A DNA stretch of 64,000 bases. Source: Sinorhizobium meliloti (GTDB lineage: Bacteria > Pseudomonadota > Alphaproteobacteria > Rhizobiales > Rhizobiaceae). The notes beneath the pieces are model-generated. The model did no database searches, was not told where the DNA came from, and saw only the letters and a program-made list of their open reading frames with translations. The translations under genes and the position numbers were made by a program. Location of the stretch: NCBI RefSeq assembly GCF_035610345.1, contig NZ_CP141212.1:2955001-3019000 (forward strand), in the 5' to 3' direction. Shown one piece after another: positions 4,004 through 64,000 of this stretch; position 1 is the stretch's first letter; each line of letters begins with the position of its first letter.

Positions 4004-4019
4004 CCTGCAACGTTGCAGG
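4004..4019. promoter_or_regulatory. LacI-type operator palindrome CCTGCAACGTTGCAGG
   Basis: Perfect 16-base palindrome with the central CG and the TGCAACGTTGCA core typical of LacI-family operators. It sits 101-116 bases upstream of the start at 3903. The nearest candidate regulator is the LacI-family protein encoded at 6964-7998. Binding is inferred. Confidence 0.6.
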
Positions 4020-4039
4020 AGCCAGAAGCTAGCAGATTC

Positions 4040-4076
4040 TTCGCGAGGGGCAATCGGCTTGTGCCCCCCTCGCGAA
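4040..4076. other. Strong stem-loop downstream of xylA
   Basis: Eleven-base perfect arms TTCGCGAGGGG (4040-4050) and CCCCTCGCGAA (4066-4076) around a 15-base loop, 19 bases past the xylA stop. No T-run follows on the minus strand, so it could be a Rho-assisted terminator or a 3'-end stabiliser of xylBA mRNA rather than a classical intrinsic terminator. Confidence 0.6.
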
Positions 4077-4094
4077 AAAGGATCTCCGTGCCCG

Positions 4095-5405
4095 TCAGAC
4101 GTAGCGGTTGACCACGTTTTCCAGAAGCTCCTGCCTGCCGGATTTCGGCTGCGGGTTGACGTCGGCCTTCCGCACCCAGGCCTCGATCTCCTCGAGCGAG
4201 AAGCCGCCGTCGAGCATCTTCTTCGCCTCCGGCACGTTCCAGCCGGCATAGCGCGCTTCGAGCGGTGCGGAGAGCGCCTTGTCCTCGATCATCTTCGCGG
4301 CCGCCTTCAGGCCGCGCGCGCAGCAATCCATGCCGCCGATATGGCCGATCAGCAGATCTTCGGGGTCGATCGACTGGCGGCGCAGCTTCGCGTCGAAGTT
4401 CGTGCCGCCGGTCTTGAAGCCGCCGCCCGCAAGCACGTGGTAATAGGCGAGCGCCATTTCCGGCACGTTGTTCGGGAACTGGTCGGTGTCCCAGCCGGAC
4501 TGGTAGTCGTTGCGGTTCATATCGATCGAACCGAAGATGCCGAGCGCATTGGCGAGCGCCAGCTCGTGCTCGAAGGAATGTCCGGCAAGGATCGCGTGGC
4601 CCTGCTCGATGTTGACCTTCACCTCGTTTTCGAGACCGTATCTCTTGAGAAAGCCGTAGACGGTCGCCACGTCGTAGTCGTACTGGTGCTTGGTCGGCTC
4701 CTGCGGTTTCGGCTCGATCAGGATCGTGCCCTTGAAGCCGATCCTGTGCTTGTATTCGACGACCAGATTGAGGAAGCGGCCGAGCTGATCGAGCTCGCGC
4801 TTCAGGTCGGTGTTGAGCAGGGTCTCATAGCCCTCGCGTCCGCCCCAGAGCACATAGTTCTCGCCGCCCAGCCGCTGCGTCGCGTCGATGCAGGTCTTCA
4901 CCGTCGCGGCGGAAAAGGCGAAGACGTCCGGGTCCGGGTTCGTCGCAGCCCCCGCCATGAAGCGGCGGTTGGAAAAGAGGTTCGCCGTGCCCCACAGCAG
5001 CTTGACGCCGGTCTCTTCCTGCTTCCCGGCGAAATAATCGACGATCTCGTTGAGATTGCTCGTGTTCTCGGCGAAGTTCCGCCCCTCCGGGCGCACGTCC
5101 GCGTCGTGGAAGCAGTAGTAGGGTACGCCGAGAAGCTGGAAGAATTCGAAGGCGACATCCGCCTTCAGCTTGGCGGCATCCATGGAATCCTTGAACCAGG
5201 GGCGTTCGAAGGTCTGCCCGCCGAAGGGATCGCCGCCCGGCCAGACGAAGGTGTGCCAGTAGGCGACGGCGAAGCGCAGATGATCCTCCATCCGCTTGCC
5301 GAGGACGACGTCCTCCGGATTGTAATGGCGGAAGGCGAGCGGATTGGTGCTTTCCGGTCCCTCGTATTTGATCTTGGCGATATCGCCGAAAAATCCCGTG
5401 CTCAC
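4095..5405 (-). CDS. xylA: Xylose isomerase
   Basis: Converts D-xylose to D-xylulose in the cytoplasm with divalent metal ions. The 436-residue length fits the long (group II) xylose isomerases. The catalytic histidine segment [12 protein letters not shown] is at about 97-108 (His100, Asp103), and metal-binding blocks [31 protein letters not shown] and GSIDMNRND are all present. The start is GTG at 5405, with AGAGGAG about 7 bases upstream. It follows xylB with a 94-base gap on the same strand, downstream of a LacI-type regulator gene, so all three probably form one xylose operon. Confidence 0.97.
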
Positions 5406-5499
5406 GACAGTCTCCTCTCATGGATTGTGAATTGGCGGCACCGTTCGCGACGGAGCCGGCTATCGGGTGGAAGGCAGGTGGTGGATGCGCCGAAACTGC

Positions 5500-6954
5500 T
5501 CACAGCGCCGCTTCCTTTATCGCCGGATAGAGCCGGCGATAGCGCTGGTAGGCATCTTCATAGGCGGGCACGAGCAATGCCTCCGGCGCGATCGTTTCCG
5601 CCGTCTCGGGTGCGGTGCAGACCACGGCCGGGTCGGCTCCGGTGGCGGCGATCAGGCCGAGCCGCGCCGCGCCGAAAGCAGCACCGAAATCGCCGTCCGC
5701 GGGCAGGTCCACCGGCAGGTTCAGTGCGGTTGCGATTGAGCTCAGCCAATAACGCGAGCGCGAACCGCCGCCGATCGCCGTCACCCGCGTGAGCTTCGTG
5801 CCGGCCGCGCGCAGTGCCTCGAGACTGTCGCGGATCGCGAAGGAAACGCCTTCGAGCACCGCCTGCGTCAGCACCGCCCGGGAGCTCTCGTGCCCGAGGC
5901 CGGCGAACACGCCGCGGATCGCCGCGTCGTTGTGCGGCGTGCGCTCGCCGGAGAGATAGGGAAGAAACGTAACCGAGCCCGGCGCCTTGAGGCTCTCGCC
6001 GAGTTCATTGGCGAGTTCCGCAGCACTCCGGCCGGTGATGCCGGAATGCCAGTTCAGCGCGTCCGTCGCCGAGAGGATCACGCCCATCTGGTGCCAGGTG
6101 TTGGGCAATGCGTGGCAGAAGGCGTGGACCGCGCTCTCCGGGTTGGGGAGATAACTTGCATTGGCCGCGAAAAGGACGCCGGACGTGCCGAGCGAGACGA
6201 AGGCCTGCCCCTCCCCGACGGTCCCCATGCCGCAGGCCGAGGCTGCGTTGTCGCCTGCACCGCCGGCGACCACGACGCCAGGCCCCATCCCCCAACGCGC
6301 GGCGAGCTCCGGCCGCAGCGTGCCGGCTACATCGGTACCCTCGACGAGTTCGGGCATCTGCCTCTCCTCGAGCTGCGTAGCGGCAAGCAGGCTCGCCGAC
6401 CACTTGCGCTTGCCCGTATCGAGCCATGACGTGCCGGCCGAATCGGACATTTCCGACATGTGCTCGCCGGTCAGCCAGAGGCGCAGGTAATCCTTCGGGA
6501 GCAGCACCCAGCGAATCCTGGCGAACAGCTCCGGCTCGTTTTCACGCACCCAGGCGAGCTTCGGTGCGGTGAAGCCCGGAAAGACGATATTGCCGGTCAG
6601 CGCCCGAAACTGCGGATCGCCGTCGAGCGCTGCCGCCTCGCGGAAGCTGCGGGTGTCGTTCCACAATATGCACGGCCGCAGGACCGCATCGCCTTCGTCG
6701 AGCAATGTCGCACCGTGCATCTGGCCGGAAAGGCCGATGCCGCGGATCGCGGCAAGCGATTGCGGATGCGTTTCCCTCAATCGGGCGATCGCCTCCTCGG
6801 CGGCACGGATCCAGTCGGCCGGATCCTGTTCCGACCAGCCGGGATGCGGCCGGTCGACGTCGAGCGCGCCGCTGGCGGAGCCGATGATCCGCTGCTCGCC
6901 GTCCATCAGCATGGCCTTGACGCCGGACGTGCCGAGATCCAGTCCGAGATACAT
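5500..6954 (-). CDS. xylB: Xylulokinase (FGGY family)
   Basis: Phosphorylates D-xylulose with ATP to xylulose 5-phosphate, which enters the pentose phosphate pathway. The 484-residue product has the N-terminal phosphate-binding segment DLGTSGVKAML (about 5-15), the GLSGQMHG block, the GAGDNAASACGMG segment with the catalytic aspartate, and the FGGY-type signature around LPYLSGERTPHNDAAIRG. It begins at ATG 6954, only 9 bases after the regulator stop at 6964, and is followed by xylA. Gene order regulator-xylB-xylA on one strand makes xylose the likely substrate rather than another ketose. Confidence 0.96.
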   Translation of the reverse strand: MYLGLDLGTSGVKAMLMDGEQRIIGSASGALDVDRPHPGWSEQDPADWIRAAEEAIARLRETHPQSLAAIRGIGLSGQMHGATLLDEGDAVLRPCILWNDTRSFREAAALDGDPQFRALTGNIVFPGFTAPKLAWVRENEPELFARIRWVLLPKDYLRLWLTGEHMSEMSDSAGTSWLDTGKRKWSASLLAATQLEERQMPELVEGTDVAGTLRPELAARWGMGPGVVVAGGAGDNAASACGMGTVGEGQAFVSLGTSGVLFAANASYLPNPESAVHAFCHALPNTWHQMGVILSATDALNWHSGITGRSAAELANELGESLKAPGSVTFLPYLSGERTPHNDAAIRGVFAGLGHESSRAVLTQAVLEGVSFAIRDSLEALRAAGTKLTRVTAIGGGSRSRYWLSSIATALNLPVDLPADGDFGAAFGAARLGLIAATGADPAVVCTAPETAETIAPEALLVPAYEDAYQRYRRLYPAIKEAAL

Positions 6955-58922: not shown

Positions 58923-59714
58923 TCAGTTGCGCCAGCGCGTCGGCGACGGCGTGCGGGAAGGGCCCACGCCTCCGTCGTTTCTGAAATAGCGGGAGGCCGC
59001 CTCGGTGCGATTGCGCACGTTCATCTTCTTGTAGATGTTGCGCACATGCACCTTGACGGTGTTTTCGGACAGTCCGAGGCGATCTGCGATGATCTTGTTC
59101 TGCGTGCCCATGCAGATGAGATCGAGAATCTGGATTTCGCGTGTCGTGAGGACGACCTGGCCGCCAAATCCTTTCCCGCGCTCCGGATCGACACTTTCAG
59201 AAGCCGTCTCGTTCGGGGTGGCGAGGTCCCGCTCTCCAGGATTCTTCGGCGCAAGGCGCCTGAGCAGTGCGGCGGGAAAATGTTCGCCGCCCTTCATCAG
59301 GAGGTCGATGGCGGTAAGGCAAACGTCGAGGTGGAGATTCAGGGGCAACACGCCGTGGATCATCCCCTCCTCGACCAGATGCGAAACCGACGCGTCGATC
59401 CCTTCCGCGTTTTCGACCAGCAGACCGACGGCCGCTTTCGGGTGGAACTCATGAATCATCCTGATGATCGATGGAAAGTTCGCCATGGGCACGCGGTAGA
59501 GCATGACCAGCGTCACACCTACGAGGTTGCCGTCCAGAAGGCTGTCGGCGTCCGAAAGCCGCACCACTTCCTGGTCCTGAAAGCGTGCGCCGATCGCCTG
59601 GGTCAGACACTCGGCGAAGAGGTCCGTCCTGGCTAGCATGACTATTTTGCTTTTTTTCGGTAAAACACTTTTGCTGTCTTCGAACCCGCCCAACCCCGAA
59701 CTCGCACGATACAT
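58923..59714 (-). CDS. LuxR-family response-regulator-like protein
   Basis: A 263-residue regulator: a divergent receiver-like N-terminal domain (KIVMLARTDLFAECLTQAIG at about 23-42, later PSIIRMIHEFHPKAAVGLLV) and a C-terminal LuxR/FixJ HTH (VVLTTREIQILDLICMGTQNKIIADRLGLSENTVKVHVRNIYKKMNVRNR split over about 185-245). I could not find a full DD...D...K phosphorylation set in the receiver part, so it may work without phosphorylation. ATG 59714 is chosen over 59762 because GAGGAGGGG precedes it closely. It is divergent from the unknown secreted-protein genes over a 1-kb gap and may control them. Confidence 0.85.
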   Translation of the reverse strand: MYRASSGLGGFEDSKSVLPKKSKIVMLARTDLFAECLTQAIGARFQDQEVVRLSDADSLLDGNLVGVTLVMLYRVPMANFPSIIRMIHEFHPKAAVGLLVENAEGIDASVSHLVEEGMIHGVLPLNLHLDVCLTAIDLLMKGGEHFPAALLRRLAPKNPGERDLATPNETASESVDPERGKGFGGQVVLTTREIQILDLICMGTQNKIIADRLGLSENTVKVHVRNIYKKMNVRNRTEAASRYFRNDGGVGPSRTPSPTRWRN

Positions 59715-60723
59715 TATCCCCTCCTCGGACTTCCCCTTGGTTTTTACGGGTTTTTTACCCATGGTGGAGAAAGGCCCGCGTTGTGAAAATTGCTTGGATT
59801 AAAAAAATTTCTCGAAAAAAAGAATTTATATTGGCTAATGTATCGTAAATATGGGGGATGTAAAACCGCCCAAAAGGATTAGGTGGCGGCCACAATCCTG
59901 TCTAAATCGTTCAAGAACGAACCAATTTTGGGCGAATCCGCGAAATTCATGCCGGATCGGCGACGCCACTCGCGCCTTTCGCCGTACCCTCGCTTTTGAG
60001 GGGTGCACCGCACCCTGCGCCTCGTCAGACCCGGATGGTCTTCGTAGTAACTCGGACAAGCATTCGCCACTCCGTCCGACGAGGTCGATACTCACATCGG
60101 GTTATCGCGAAGGTAATGCGGGCGCGGCCAATTCGGTCGATCGCGTGCTGAGGCAGATGTCCGACGCACTTTCCGCCAAGGAACCCTGCAGCCGGCCTTC
60201 GCTCAGCAATCCAAGCGTGCCGGGGCAAACGAACTGCACATTTGAGATCGCGATTGTCGAGTATTTTCAGACCTTTATCTGAGCGCCTCGATTAAGGTAC
60301 ATGCGCAGGCATGGCGAGTCGATCGCGAGCTGCACTCGAAACGAGTGCGTCGGTTGCCGCGCAGCGAATATTGAGCGACAAATCCGAGACGGGCCGGTGC
60401 CGAGTCTCATAACCACAATAGGTAGCTTTCACTCGACTGCGTTCCAGATCACACTCCAATGGTCGCACCAACATTCTGTGCGTCTTCGATCATTGTTTCG
60501 CGTAGAAGATCGGAAATATAGATACTTACGTTTATATGACAAATATTATGACTATTCGTTACCATACGTAGGAATTTAGGCGCTTTGTATCGCGCTGAAA
60601 TGACATTGCAAGCAGAGACGGAACATTCATTTCCGCTAAACCGCCAAAAGAGCCAGCGCCTCAAGAATCCTATAAAAGATGAAGGGTTTCGGTGCTGGCT
60701 CCCCCTCTTATGAGGAAGTGCTT
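59715..60723. other. 1-kb relatively AT-rich intergenic region
   Basis: No gene could be supported. The luxR-proximal 100 bases are AT-rich with several A and T runs, and another AT-rich stretch lies at 60500-60580. Short palindromes occur: TCGTTC-AA-GAACGA (59907-59920) and GCACTCG-AAA-CGAGTGC (60332-60348). A frame of 143 codons at 59851-60282 (starts MGDVKPPKRI) has no visible motif and no strong ribosome site. A TATAAA (60671-60676) could be a -10 for the next gene. A regulatory RNA or long leader is possible. Confidence 0.5.
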
Positions 60724-61278
60724 ATGCCCGATTCCTCACAGAAGAATCTTGGGCTCCACGACAACTTCAGTGCCGATGACGAGCTGAAGACGGGTGCGCT
60801 TGCCGATGGCGTAGCGATGAACACGTCCAGCAGGTCGGTTGCCGGTGGCAGCACCAGTCTCACCGAGACCGCCGGGGGTGACTTTGCCTTCTCCCTCGGC
60901 GACGGCTTTTCCTTTTCCCTGAATGTCGACAATGTTCTGGGCAACGGCGCCAGCATCTACGAAGCCGGGTTCAGCCTGGCCCAGGCCAATAGCCTGGCCG
61001 ATCAGGACCGCGCTTATGACGTCGGCAAGAGCGGCAATACCGATCCCGGCACAGGCAGCGGAGAACCTGGTGGCGACGGCCTCACCACGGACGGTTGGGA
61101 TCTCAAGGGCGACGAGGGTGCATCCCACCCCTCGACGGCGACGCCGCCAGGCCCGGCAAGTCCGGACTTCCACCACGAAATCGTCCAGGGCGCGAACCTT
61201 CTCAGCAACGCCGACGTCAGCACCACCGTTGGCGATCCGGGCGTGACCCCGGCGGGGTCGGATAGCGACCTCGAATGA
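60724..61278 (+). CDS. Unknown acidic Gly/Ser/Asp-rich protein
   Basis: Not recognised. The 184-residue product has no signal peptide, no cysteine and few basic residues. It is rich in Ser, Gly and Asp, with a hydrophobic-alternating core (GGDFAFSLGDGFSFSLNVDN, about 52-71) followed by ASIYEAGFSLAQANSLADQD, then a Gly/Asp/Pro-rich tail ending DSDLE. This composition is typical of exported, unfolded substrates of type I secretion, but no RTX nonapeptide is seen. ATG 60724 has AGGAAG 5 bases upstream; ATG 60679 would add 15 residues. It lies 132 bases before the 681-residue gene, probably in one transcript. Confidence 0.65.
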   Translation: MPDSSQKNLGLHDNFSADDELKTGALADGVAMNTSSRSVAGGSTSLTETAGGDFAFSLGDGFSFSLNVDNVLGNGASIYEAGFSLAQANSLADQDRAYDVGKSGNTDPGTGSGEPGGDGLTTDGWDLKGDEGASHPSTATPPGPASPDFHHEIVQGANLLSNADVSTTVGDPGVTPAGSDSDLE

Positions 61279-61296
61279 ACGACCGGATGCACCGGC

Positions 61297-61337
61297 CGTG
61301 CTGGATATCGACCGCGGGCGAACGCCAGCACGTTTCC
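61297..61337 (+). terminator. Possible attenuator hairpin between the two unknown genes
   Basis: CGTGCTGG (61297-61304) and CCAGCACG (61325-61332) form a perfect 8-base stem with a 20-base loop, followed by TTTCCTTC. It could partly terminate the transcript after the 184-residue gene. Confidence 0.4.
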
Positions 61338-61410
61338 TTCAATCGTATCCGCTTGAAGAAAAAATGAGGTTTAAGGCACCCTTTGCTGCGGAAAGGGGAA
61401 GGATTGGACG

Positions 61411-63456
61411 ATGCATTCGGAGAAGATCAACGAGATCGTTGCGCATTTCATAGGGCTGTTCAACACGGCGATCGATGACGCGCGTATAAGATTTGAATAC
61501 CTGCAGGGATATGAAACCCCGAAGACTGCGCAAAAGGAGGACTCCGACTACGTGCAGTCGCCTGATTTCCGGTCTGACTTCGCGTTGAAAAGCTACGACC
61601 CCGAGATCTCCTACGAACTCCGGGCTTACGACATCGCCCGGCTCGACTCCGCCGATCATGCCGCCCCGTCACGGCATCACCTCGACCAACCGGCCGCCGC
61701 GGCGCAAGCCGGACAGGTGGATGTCCGGTCCACGGAGAACCACGGCATTTCCGGCAACGGCCCCGAAGCGTCGGATACGATGCCTCCTGCGGGTCCCGAC
61801 GCGGGCTTCAGCCATATCTATCAGGCAAGCACCCTTCATGACGACGATGTCGTGAACCTGACCGGCATGCTTGCGGAGCCGCGCAACCTGACGCATGTGG
61901 ACCAGACGCTCGAAGGCTTTCTCGCGGAAGCCCTTGAAGCCTCGCCCTTCGCGCAGATCGGCGCCGCCGATGCGCCCGCCTCTTTCGCCGCAGTGGCTGC
62001 GAACCTTGAAGCACTTGCCTCCATGGCGGACGCCAGCCAACAGGCCGTTCCGGCCGCGCCCGCGAAAGGCGGACCGGAGGATCTCCCGCAAGCCGCCTCT
62101 CCGGACGAATTGGTGAAAAACGAGGCGGGCGATGCCGTTCTCATCGCGGAACGCATCGAGGGCACCTATGTCAACGGCACCCGCGCCGACGCCGCGCCGG
62201 AACTGCGCGACAATCTCCCCGGGCGAGAGCACACTGCTCACCCCGCCGGGACGCCCCTCGACAAGCCGCTCCAGAACGGCGACCTCGACATCCATGCGGG
62301 AGCCAATGTCGTCGCCAATGTTGCCAGCGTTGTCGGCGCAGTCGAGGCCCCACCCGTGACCGCCGTGATGGGTGACTACCACCAAATCGATGTCATCTCG
62401 CAATCCTACGTCTATGCCGACAGGGACACGCTCGACGGCGCGATCTCCGGCACATGCGCGACGATGACCAAGACCGTCGCACTGAACATAGCAAGCTTCG
62501 GTGGCGGAGAAACCGGGGCATGCCTGCCCGAGGAAGCGGAGATTCCGGCCGAATCTTCGACATTCCCGACAAGCTGGCGCGTGAACGTCGTCGAAGGTGA
62601 TCTTTCCATCGTCCATTGGGTCGAGCAGTACAACTTCGCCAGCGACAATGACAGCCTGACCGTCACCAGGACGGGTGCGGAGACGACCGTGCTCAGCGGC
62701 GGCAACACGGCAGTGAACGTCGCATCGTTTCTCGGCATTGCCGAGCATTACGATCTGATCCTCGTCGGCGGCCGGCTGATCGATCTCGACGTCATCAGCC
62801 AGATCTCCATCCTCTACGACAATGACGACATCGCAGGCGTATCCGCCGGCAAAGGCATCGCGCTGGACACCGGCGGCAATCTCGTCTGGAACATGGCCTC
62901 GATCGGAAACGTGAGCTCCGGCGTCCGCTTCGAGGCGATGCCGGACTACTTTCATAAGGCCGCCGACCAGATGCACGAGGGCGACGGCACATTGCCGGAC
63001 GAACTCCTGCGCGACAATGCTTTCGAAGGCTATGCCGACCTGCACATCCTGTTCATCACCGGCAATCTCTATGACGTCACGATCGTCCAACAGGTCAGCA
63101 TTCTCGGCGACGCCGACGCCGTCTCGTTTGCCGCGGGCAAGTTGCTCGAAGACGGACCGGAGGCCTCGGTCGCGGTGCATACGGGAAACAATGGCGTCTT
63201 CAATGTCGCGGAGATCATCGACTCCGGCGGGACGACCTATGTCGGCGGCGGGACCTATTCCGACGCAGTGCTCATCCAATCGGGAATCGTCGACGGAATG
63301 CCGGACCTTCAGCGGGAAAGTGGCGGTCTGACAACCGAACTCATCGCCTTTATCGGCGAGGATACGGCGCCGCAGGGCGGAGACATGGACGGCGATCACG
63401 GCACCGACCTGTCCGGCAGCCAGTGGAGCGACGTCATGCATACGATACTGGCTTGA
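61411..63456 (+). CDS. Unknown 681-residue repeat protein, likely exported
   Basis: Not recognised by family. There is no N-terminal signal peptide. Residues about 1-290 are acidic and Ala/Asp-rich with no clear domain. From about 295 to 655 there are four to five copies of a repeat of about 75-100 residues: a line like GGN-x-V-x-NxAS followed by a variable part, then V-x-G-x-L-x-D-x-xVIxQxSILxDND (for example VGGRLIDLDVISQISILYDN and ITGNLYDVTIVQQVSILGDA). The C-terminal tail SGSQWSDVMHTILA resembles an uncleaved type I secretion signal. GGAAGG precedes ATG 61411. Neighbours fit an export locus. Confidence 0.75.
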   Translation: MHSEKINEIVAHFIGLFNTAIDDARIRFEYLQGYETPKTAQKEDSDYVQSPDFRSDFALKSYDPEISYELRAYDIARLDSADHAAPSRHHLDQPAAAAQAGQVDVRSTENHGISGNGPEASDTMPPAGPDAGFSHIYQASTLHDDDVVNLTGMLAEPRNLTHVDQTLEGFLAEALEASPFAQIGAADAPASFAAVAANLEALASMADASQQAVPAAPAKGGPEDLPQAASPDELVKNEAGDAVLIAERIEGTYVNGTRADAAPELRDNLPGREHTAHPAGTPLDKPLQNGDLDIHAGANVVANVASVVGAVEAPPVTAVMGDYHQIDVISQSYVYADRDTLDGAISGTCATMTKTVALNIASFGGGETGACLPEEAEIPAESSTFPTSWRVNVVEGDLSIVHWVEQYNFASDNDSLTVTRTGAETTVLSGGNTAVNVASFLGIAEHYDLILVGGRLIDLDVISQISILYDNDDIAGVSAGKGIALDTGGNLVWNMASIGNVSSGVRFEAMPDYFHKAADQMHEGDGTLPDELLRDNAFEGYADLHILFITGNLYDVTIVQQVSILGDADAVSFAAGKLLEDGPEASVAVHTGNNGVFNVAEIIDSGGTTYVGGGTYSDAVLIQSGIVDGMPDLQRESGGLTTELIAFIGEDTAPQGGDMDGDHGTDLSGSQWSDVMHTILA

Positions 63457-63556
63457 AGCCGATCCGCTTCGAGCTCTTAGGGTTGCACAGCTTCGAACGG
63501 AGATCCGTTGGACGGTCCTGACCGAAACTTCAAGGGCCAAGCGCAGGGGAGCGAGC

Positions 63557-64000
63557 ATGAACGACATGTCGAAGTGGTATGCCGGGCGAGGCAAGCCGCA
63601 GCGCCAGGATGTCGCACGGCTGGAGCTGCCCGAGATAGCCGAAGCCGAGGCTGCGACACCCTTCGAAAGGCCGCCAGGGCCGAACGGAAAGGCAGACGCG
63701 GCAAGGCTCTCGGAGCGAAAGCAAGCATCGGCATCGGCCGATGCGTGCCGCGACGAGGGCGACGTTTCCAAGGTGGAAAGACGGCAGGCTCCGGGGCTGC
63801 CGCGAACAATCGAAAATGACCCGGGCCCGATGAAGCAGGACGACATTCGCCCGGTTGAACGCAGCGCAACAGGTGAAGGGCAAGCGAGCGAAGACGGCGG
63901 TGGCAGGAGCACGCTTCACAAGCGCATGGGACCGGCGAACTTCGCCGCCAGCCTGCACAACGGCATGGCCGCTGTCCGGCGCAACATGCTGATCGTCATC
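63557..64000 (+). CDS. Start of a gene, possibly type I secretion ABC transporter (partial)
   Basis: GGGGAG lies a few bases before ATG 63557, and the frame stays open to the window end, giving 148 residues: a hydrophilic, Asp/Glu/Arg-rich N-terminal extension, then LHNGMAAVRRNMLIVI, where a first membrane segment seems to begin. This layout matches rhizobial T1SS ATPase/permeases with a long N-terminal extension, which are commonly next to such substrates. The ABC motifs are beyond the window, so the identification rests on context. Confidence 0.45.
   Translation, partial: MNDMSKWYAGRGKPQRQDVARLELPEIAEAEAATPFERPPGPNGKADAARLSERKQASASADACRDEGDVSKVERRQAPGLPRTIENDPGPMKQDDIRPVERSATGEGQASEDGGGRSTLHKRMGPANFAASLHNGMAAVRRNMLIVI

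Follow-up and report, generated by a model that had tools for sequence, protein, structure and literature searches.

Four type I secretion systems (T1SSs), PrsDE, ToaDE, TobDE and BltDE, have been described in Rhizobium leguminosarum 3841, and that 2008 study reports that no known type I substrate is encoded closer than 10 kb to either toaDE or tobDE (PMC2275737). Both of the latter systems are likewise named without a cargo in PMC10925705. Relatives of ToaD were recorded as a syntenic Sinorhizobium meliloti gene of 80% identity and an Agrobacterium tumefaciens gene of 86% identity (PMC2275737). Here, we describe a locus at the end of a 64,000-nucleotide stretch (the window, C1:2955001-3019000) within the 6.63 Mb genome of a Sinorhizobium of the S. 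meliloti group, in which two genes, here called A and B, lie directly ahead of a type I exporter, and we consider it probable, from sequence comparison, that protein B is a non-RTX cargo dedicated to this exporter.

Protein A (184 amino acids, 60724..61278, plus strand) is followed after 132 bases by protein B (681 amino acids, 61411..63456, plus strand), which the open reading frame (ORF) listing, alignments and profile self-comparison identify as a repeat protein. A further 100 bases separate B from a PrtD-type ATP-binding cassette (ABC) exporter of 695 amino acids (63557..64000, plus strand, continuing to L002:7645), cut by the end of the window, and the ATG of a HlyD-type adaptor (450 amino acids, L002:7648-9000, same strand, beyond position 64000) lies 2 bases after the ABC stop. 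Because the gaps are short and all four genes share one strand, A, B, ABC and HlyD are likely to form a single operon. An ATG at 60679 would extend A to 199 amino acids, but the Met at 60724 is near-invariant in the family and has GAGGAAG just upstream, which makes 60724, the start chosen in the original prediction from the window letters, the better one. That prediction also described two adjacent proteins and a third gene breaking off where a transmembrane segment begins, as the ORF listing, with its two neighbouring ORFs on one strand and a third cut at the window end, and the position of the first strongly hydrophobic ABC segment, at residue 139 of 695, bear out.

Linkage of protein B to the exporter

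The ABC gene at 63557 matches TIGR01842 (PrtD type) with 747.8 bits (cut-off 510.15, E 6.5e-225), the match starting at residue 138, past an N-terminal extension, and the adaptor matches TIGR01843 with 464.6 bits (cut-off 208.65); the original prediction had proposed looking for ABC ATPase and HlyD genes past position 64000 as its own check, and the outcome favours it. A TolC-type channel, the sole match to TIGR01844 found in the genome (349.6 bits, cut-off 225.15), is encoded outside the locus at C1:1549130-1550353. The same genome carries two further PrtD-type ABC genes above the cut-off, both on C2, and the ABC Sm_C17, which we take to be PrsD, is 36% identical to that of the window. Among 15 PrtD-type ABCs from five genomes (15 of the 18 listed), the window type alone is at least 74% identical among S. 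meliloti, A. tumefaciens and Rhizobium.

Linkage of B to this exporter extends well beyond the genome in hand. An ABC gene stands next to B in all 30 loci of the first search, window locus included, and among the matches listed the nearest B locus is that of Sinorhizobium meliloti 4H41 (95% over 681 residues). For wider comparison 80 named loci were used out of 120 confirmed places, a set from which records near the window may be missing; ABC and then HlyD follow B in 75/75 of those with 5.5 kb downstream, the other five ending less than 550 bases from B. In a sample of 297 genomes drawn evenly from the order, with our own thresholds of E<=1e-5 for B and E<=1e-170 for ABC, B was found in 26 genomes, spread over 17 genera, and the window-type ABC in 29, all 26 being among the 29 (Fisher p 2e-34, kinship ignored). 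In every one of the 26, the window's own genome included, the ABC match lies downstream of B in the same orientation and at most 1.3 kb away. Within the genus, 32 of 33 genomes carry B and the same 32 carry the ABC, G017 lacking both, while the class sample yielded B in 2/289 genomes, again counting our own. In a tree of 34 hand-picked rows a branch with support 100/99 separates the ABCs adjoining B from the rest; a long-branch warning applies outside the group of interest, and the ABC of L136 is in neither the tree nor the ABC comparison.

Relatives of the window ABC that lack a clear B have other repetitive proteins in its place (L164:5675-8032, L165:5324-9310, L166:5615-6628 and L168:5744-7837), which share an N-terminal FLTWSFFLA-like stretch.

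Repeats and C-terminus of protein B

The 681-residue protein was originally credited with four to five copies of an uncommon repeat, and closer analysis upholds this count. Q-x5-D-x-D occurs five times, at residues 138, 331, 406, 464 and 561 (61822..61848, 62401..62427, 62626..62652, 62800..62826 and 63091..63117, respectively; 5000 shuffles: mean 0.19, maximum 3), and G-x-N-x3-N four times, at residues 297, 430, 488 and 592 (62299..62319, 62698..62718, 62872..62892 and 63184..63204, respectively; 5000 shuffles: mean 0.10, maximum 2), all on the plus strand, both motifs having been picked after the alignment was viewed. Off-diagonal repeats are recovered when the profile is compared with itself (E 4.5e-14 to 7e-6), and a conserved N-terminal segment of ~30 residues precedes the repeats. 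The family alignment (A2) joins the window to 61 loci selected by us from the 80 named ones, and many of its 62 members are close relatives. Homologues are ~635-740 amino acids long; five copies of Q-x5-D-x-D are present in 57 of the 62, four in 2, seven in 2 and three in 1. The 34 motif positions hold 20 of the 40 invariant columns, an enrichment (p 9e-19) that is descriptive, the positions having been defined on the same family. In L033 (G022) the B gene lies in two pieces in different open frames and may be broken; row L033 of alignment A1 contains the second piece only.

The suggestion that the repeat lies outside known families also holds for the collections searched. Across the 62 members the best Pfam match has E 0.0038, in one member, with no RTX family among the matches and curlin absent up to E 0.1, and NCBIfam gives at best E 0.016, also in one member, with no convincing family; the best match of the B profile to Protein Data Bank sequences, HasA included, has E 0.4, and PHROGs returned no match for B or for the three A-like proteins tried. 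SlpA domain II was considered for B and rejected (E 0.016, 16.2 bits against a cut-off of 24.5), such weak matches occurring in one or two members each. An RTX motif had been reported absent, and accordingly the nonapeptide GGxGxDxU is present as one copy in 1/62 B proteins and matched by 1/27 A members, in neither case as a tandem array. Protein B is acidic throughout the family (pI 3.5-4.32, median 3.71, compared with 3.21-3.99 for A members), with a median of 1.8% Lys and no Cys in 27/62. That neither protein has a signal peptide, as first claimed, agrees with hydropathy, which is the basis of this assignment: the top 19-residue value in the first 40 residues is 0.8 for B and -0.32 for the long form of A.

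Conservation counted from the end marks out the C-terminal octapeptide of B (63430..63453, plus strand) as a candidate type I secretion signal. When the 62 proteins are read to the stop and aligned without gaps from that end, Asp is found at -8 in 61/62; position -6 holds Met in 51 and Leu in 8, position -5 Gln or His in 56/62, and position -1 Ala, Thr, Gly or Ser in 62/62. Entropy averages 1.36 bits for the eight final positions, compared with 3.03 for the preceding 32. When the ending is written as a strict DNA pattern (Met at -6, stops TAA or TGA only), the 6.63 Mb genome contains a single match, where B ends, and none to the reversed control. The octapeptide may be read as a recognition signal because it keeps a fixed distance from the free C-terminus after a variable linker, and an uncleaved C-terminal signal is carried by RTX-type type I cargo (PMC8277102).

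We propose that B is made without a Sec signal and would be recognised by the adjacent PrtD-type ABC through this octapeptide, with its Asp at -8, usually a Met at -6, two hydrophobic positions and a small final residue, to be passed outward through the ABC, the HlyD-type adaptor and then the genome's TolC-like outer membrane channel. The Q-x5-D-x-D and G-x-N-x3-N motifs probably correspond to turns of a repeat fold that would form outside the cell, perhaps aided by calcium held in the D-x-D turns, in the manner of RTX proteins, and the product would most likely be a surface or matrix structure.

Protein A and an apparent exchange of the cassette

An A-like gene lies 91-257 bases 5' of B in 77/77 of the named loci where such an ORF fits, while the remaining three begin too near B to show one or have no match. 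The A-like profile was iterated on upstream ORFs only, making the upstream matches partly a product of construction; as a control, it matches none besides these among 4411 ORFs (at least 90 amino acids) of the 80 loci. Q-x5-D-x-D of A (60982..61008, plus strand) has its Q, D and D invariant in alignment A3, which contains the window and 26 of the 38 loci with a tblastn match, and G-x-N-x3-N (61189..61209, plus strand) has an invariant G and first N and a nearly invariant second N. The first motif precedes the second in 26/27 aligned members, an order seen in 26 of 20000 shuffled versions of A, and among the 77 A-like ORFs the Q motif is found in 75, the G motif in 72, and both in this order in 70.

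What lies between or before the motifs is far more variable. A-like ORFs of the named loci span 155-728 amino acids when counted from the first possible start, and may therefore be overlong. In A3, nine of ten Sinorhizobium/Ensifer rows, including the window, are short (up to ~250 amino acids), the other being L042 with 333, and the Rhizobium/Agrobacterium rows have 314-336 amino acids with an Asp/Thr/Ser-rich stretch. Of the 13 members shown from the distant group (523-714 amino acids), 12 have a long Gly-rich stretch between the motif blocks, and the thirteenth, L078 (Devosia), has an Asn/Asp/Ser-rich repeat ahead of them.

The shared motifs make kinship between the repeats of A and B likely, and no stronger term is justified because the motifs were chosen after the sequences had been seen. 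Proven membership of A in the B repeat family was considered and set aside (profile E 0.19 over 12 columns, motifs picked post hoc). With one motif of each kind and a highly variable insert between or before them, A could be a second cargo or a partner of B, a role towards which we lean slightly. In L169, from a genome of the same class, two tandem A-like genes precede B (4012-4854 and 5173-6003), with weak profile matches (E 0.034 and 0.00055, respectively).

The B gene and its exporter also vary together at one chromosomal site, recognised by HPPD and LuxR genes of at least 60% identity and compared in 18 of the 80 named loci (Sinorhizobium/Ensifer). Twelve have a window-type cassette, with identities of 45-95% for B, 77-98% for ABC and 87-99% for HlyD, and six have a divergent one (30-32%, 62-70% and 56-59%, respectively). 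The flanks are without this split: over all 18 loci HPPD is 90-99% and LuxR 67-97% identical, and those of the six divergent loci (90-92% and 69-73%, respectively) are on a par with most of the twelve. Two of the six, L071 and L091, are in the ABC tree, where they group with Phyllobacteriaceae and one Aurantimonadaceae row, apart from the window, and the gene for a 168-residue protein described below changes along with the cassette in 5/6, L071 being the exception. Because B, ABC and HlyD diverge together while HPPD and LuxR do not, the three seem to change as a unit, which is what a cargo-exporter fit would predict, although the split could in part reflect faster divergence instead of replacement. 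Both cassette types are present, in two places, in G021, whose places match the Sinorhizobium glycinis loci L038 and L076.

A wider and more tentative idea, possible but in our view doubtful, is that A and B are the two components of a novel type of exported surface coat or fibre, with B as conserved scaffold and A as a single repeat unit whose fast-changing low-complexity stretch (Asp/Thr-, Gln/Asn- or Gly-rich by lineage) sets surface properties. The dedicated type I exporter would build this structure, and the cassette would be swapped at its fixed site like a surface-antigen locus.

Several observations count against B as cargo of the adjacent exporter. Two of the 26 B matches in the order sample are weak (5.5e-6 and 5.1e-8), and three genomes there have a related ABC without B; the ABCs of these three are ~50% identical to that of the window, near the two weak-B genomes (51%), and other long repetitive or low-complexity proteins precede them. 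Our first C-terminal pattern fitted only 37/62 B proteins, and the one that fits 61/62 (5.2 expected from shuffled tails) was set after the ends had been seen, among many close relatives. The A and B profiles do not match significantly, their 12-column match falling on Q-x5-D-x-D, and A is without the octapeptide, for which reason the substrate reading is weaker for A. In R. leguminosarum, mutation of toaD reportedly left the supernatant protein profile in Y-mannitol medium unchanged and affected neither biofilms nor nodulation (PMC2275737). The initial proposal that B and A are substrates or accessory proteins of a type I-like exporter is nevertheless supported, its linkage reaching far beyond one genome; export would be probable for B and less so for A.

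Tight linkage would also be expected if B and A assisted the exporter, for instance as a chaperone, adaptor or docking factor in the cytoplasm, with the real cargo encoded elsewhere or not a protein. The conserved N-terminal segment of B ahead of its repeats would suit such a part, and, no cargo having been found for toaDE, the 2008 authors raised the possibility that such systems do not secrete proteins (PMC2275737). An acidic, Cys-poor protein of many repeats with a conserved free C-terminus is nevertheless unlike a soluble cytoplasmic machine, as are low-complexity stretches that vary by lineage in A, and where the three related exporters lack B, different proteins of repetitive, low-complexity sequence occupy its position; we regard an accessory role as unlikely. 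More improbable still is contact-dependent killing of the Cdz kind, in which two T1SS-exported proteins would aggregate on the surface and the 168-residue neighbour would be the immunity protein. Two proteins beside a T1SS ABC and a HlyD-type gene are found in cdzABCD (PMC5380434), 12 of the 13 distant-group A members shown are Gly-rich, and the 168-residue gene is near in 69/69 named loci with both flanks. According to PMC5380434, CdzC and CdzD have 86 and 84 amino acids and CdzI is a small transmembrane protein, compared with ~635-740 for B and 155-728 for A-like proteins, and many Cdz-like systems are horizontally acquired and near genomic islands, compared with a locus in 32/33 genus genomes. 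That B and A are unrelated conserved proteins beside the exporter by history only is already disfavoured and scarcely credible given 26/26 order-sample B genes adjoining a window-type ABC in 17 genera, agreement of B and ABC in all 33 genus genomes, and joint divergence of B, ABC and HlyD at one site. A dedicated non-RTX cargo remains our preferred interpretation of protein B.

Neighbouring genes and comparison with known systems

A LuxR/GerE-type regulator of 279 amino acids (58923..59762, minus strand; PF00196 E 7.1e-21) lies divergent to A and B and may regulate the locus; in 59/74 named loci with at least 5 kb upstream, a homologue likewise stands ahead of B in divergent orientation. Promoter and terminator scans were uninformative (4 against 2.1 in shuffles, and 8 against 6.6, respectively). 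The HlyD-type gene is followed by that of the conserved 168-residue protein (L002:9087-9593), which in 33 of the 69 loci is upstream on the minus strand. This protein has no Pfam match and keeps RNKY-x-HC in at least 90% of 73 aligned sequences, an R-x4-H pattern that, we presume, recalls HEPN domains. Some 3.6 kb past HlyD, a GGDEF-EAL protein (cyclic-di-GMP turnover) is encoded at L002:12575-14569, and is kept here in several Sinorhizobium/Ensifer loci.

Rhizobia and agrobacteria carry a conserved exporter that is probably one left without cargo in the 2008 study (PMC2275737), and should B prove to be its cargo, this orphan system could be tested directly. A repeat family unmatched by Pfam or NCBIfam would then join the non-RTX type I cargo, and its unusually clear C-terminal signal could help to find further cargo. 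Earlier work on the A/B pair was not found in the open-licence PMC literature, which does not imply its absence in print.

The closest described system is ToaDE (RL0072/RL0071), like the window exporter a PrtD/AprD-type ABC with its adaptor (PMC2275737). The Rhizobium hidalgonense orthologue of the window ABC is 79.97% identical over 569 residues, and through this species, not through RL0072 itself, the window exporter is probably the ToaDE system of R. leguminosarum. The 86% identity to A. tumefaciens given in PMC2275737 was not reproduced, the comparison of A. tumefaciens with R. hidalgonense giving 91% over the core and 76% over the whole length, and while that study names no known substrate within 10 kb, here A and B are proposed. 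If the exporter is ToaD, its cargo went unseen in the 2008 supernatant comparison.

Three other systems bear on this proposal. Serratia HasDE-HasA likewise combines an exporter ABC without a C39 or C39-like domain and a cargo without RTX, so exporters of this shape can carry non-RTX cargo (PMC8277102); HasA differs in binding haem, while B is a ~680-residue repeat protein whose profile matches HasA no better than E 0.4. PrsDE, with its NodO, Ply and Rap cargo, is a rhizobial PrtD-type T1SS whose cargo is extracellular, but its cargoes are many and scattered (PMC2275737), in contrast to one linked pair without RTX here. Caulobacter CdzABCDI resembles the locus as a T1SS exporting two proteins encoded alongside, and differs in its toxic cargo of 84-86 amino acids with glycine zippers and its small transmembrane immunity protein (PMC5380434); at 184 and 681 amino acids, respectively, A and B lie outside the size of Cdz-type cargo (~5-10 kDa). 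The exporter machine is of a known kind, and what is new is the cargo family, the paired protein A with its changing stretch, and the apparent exchange of the cassette.

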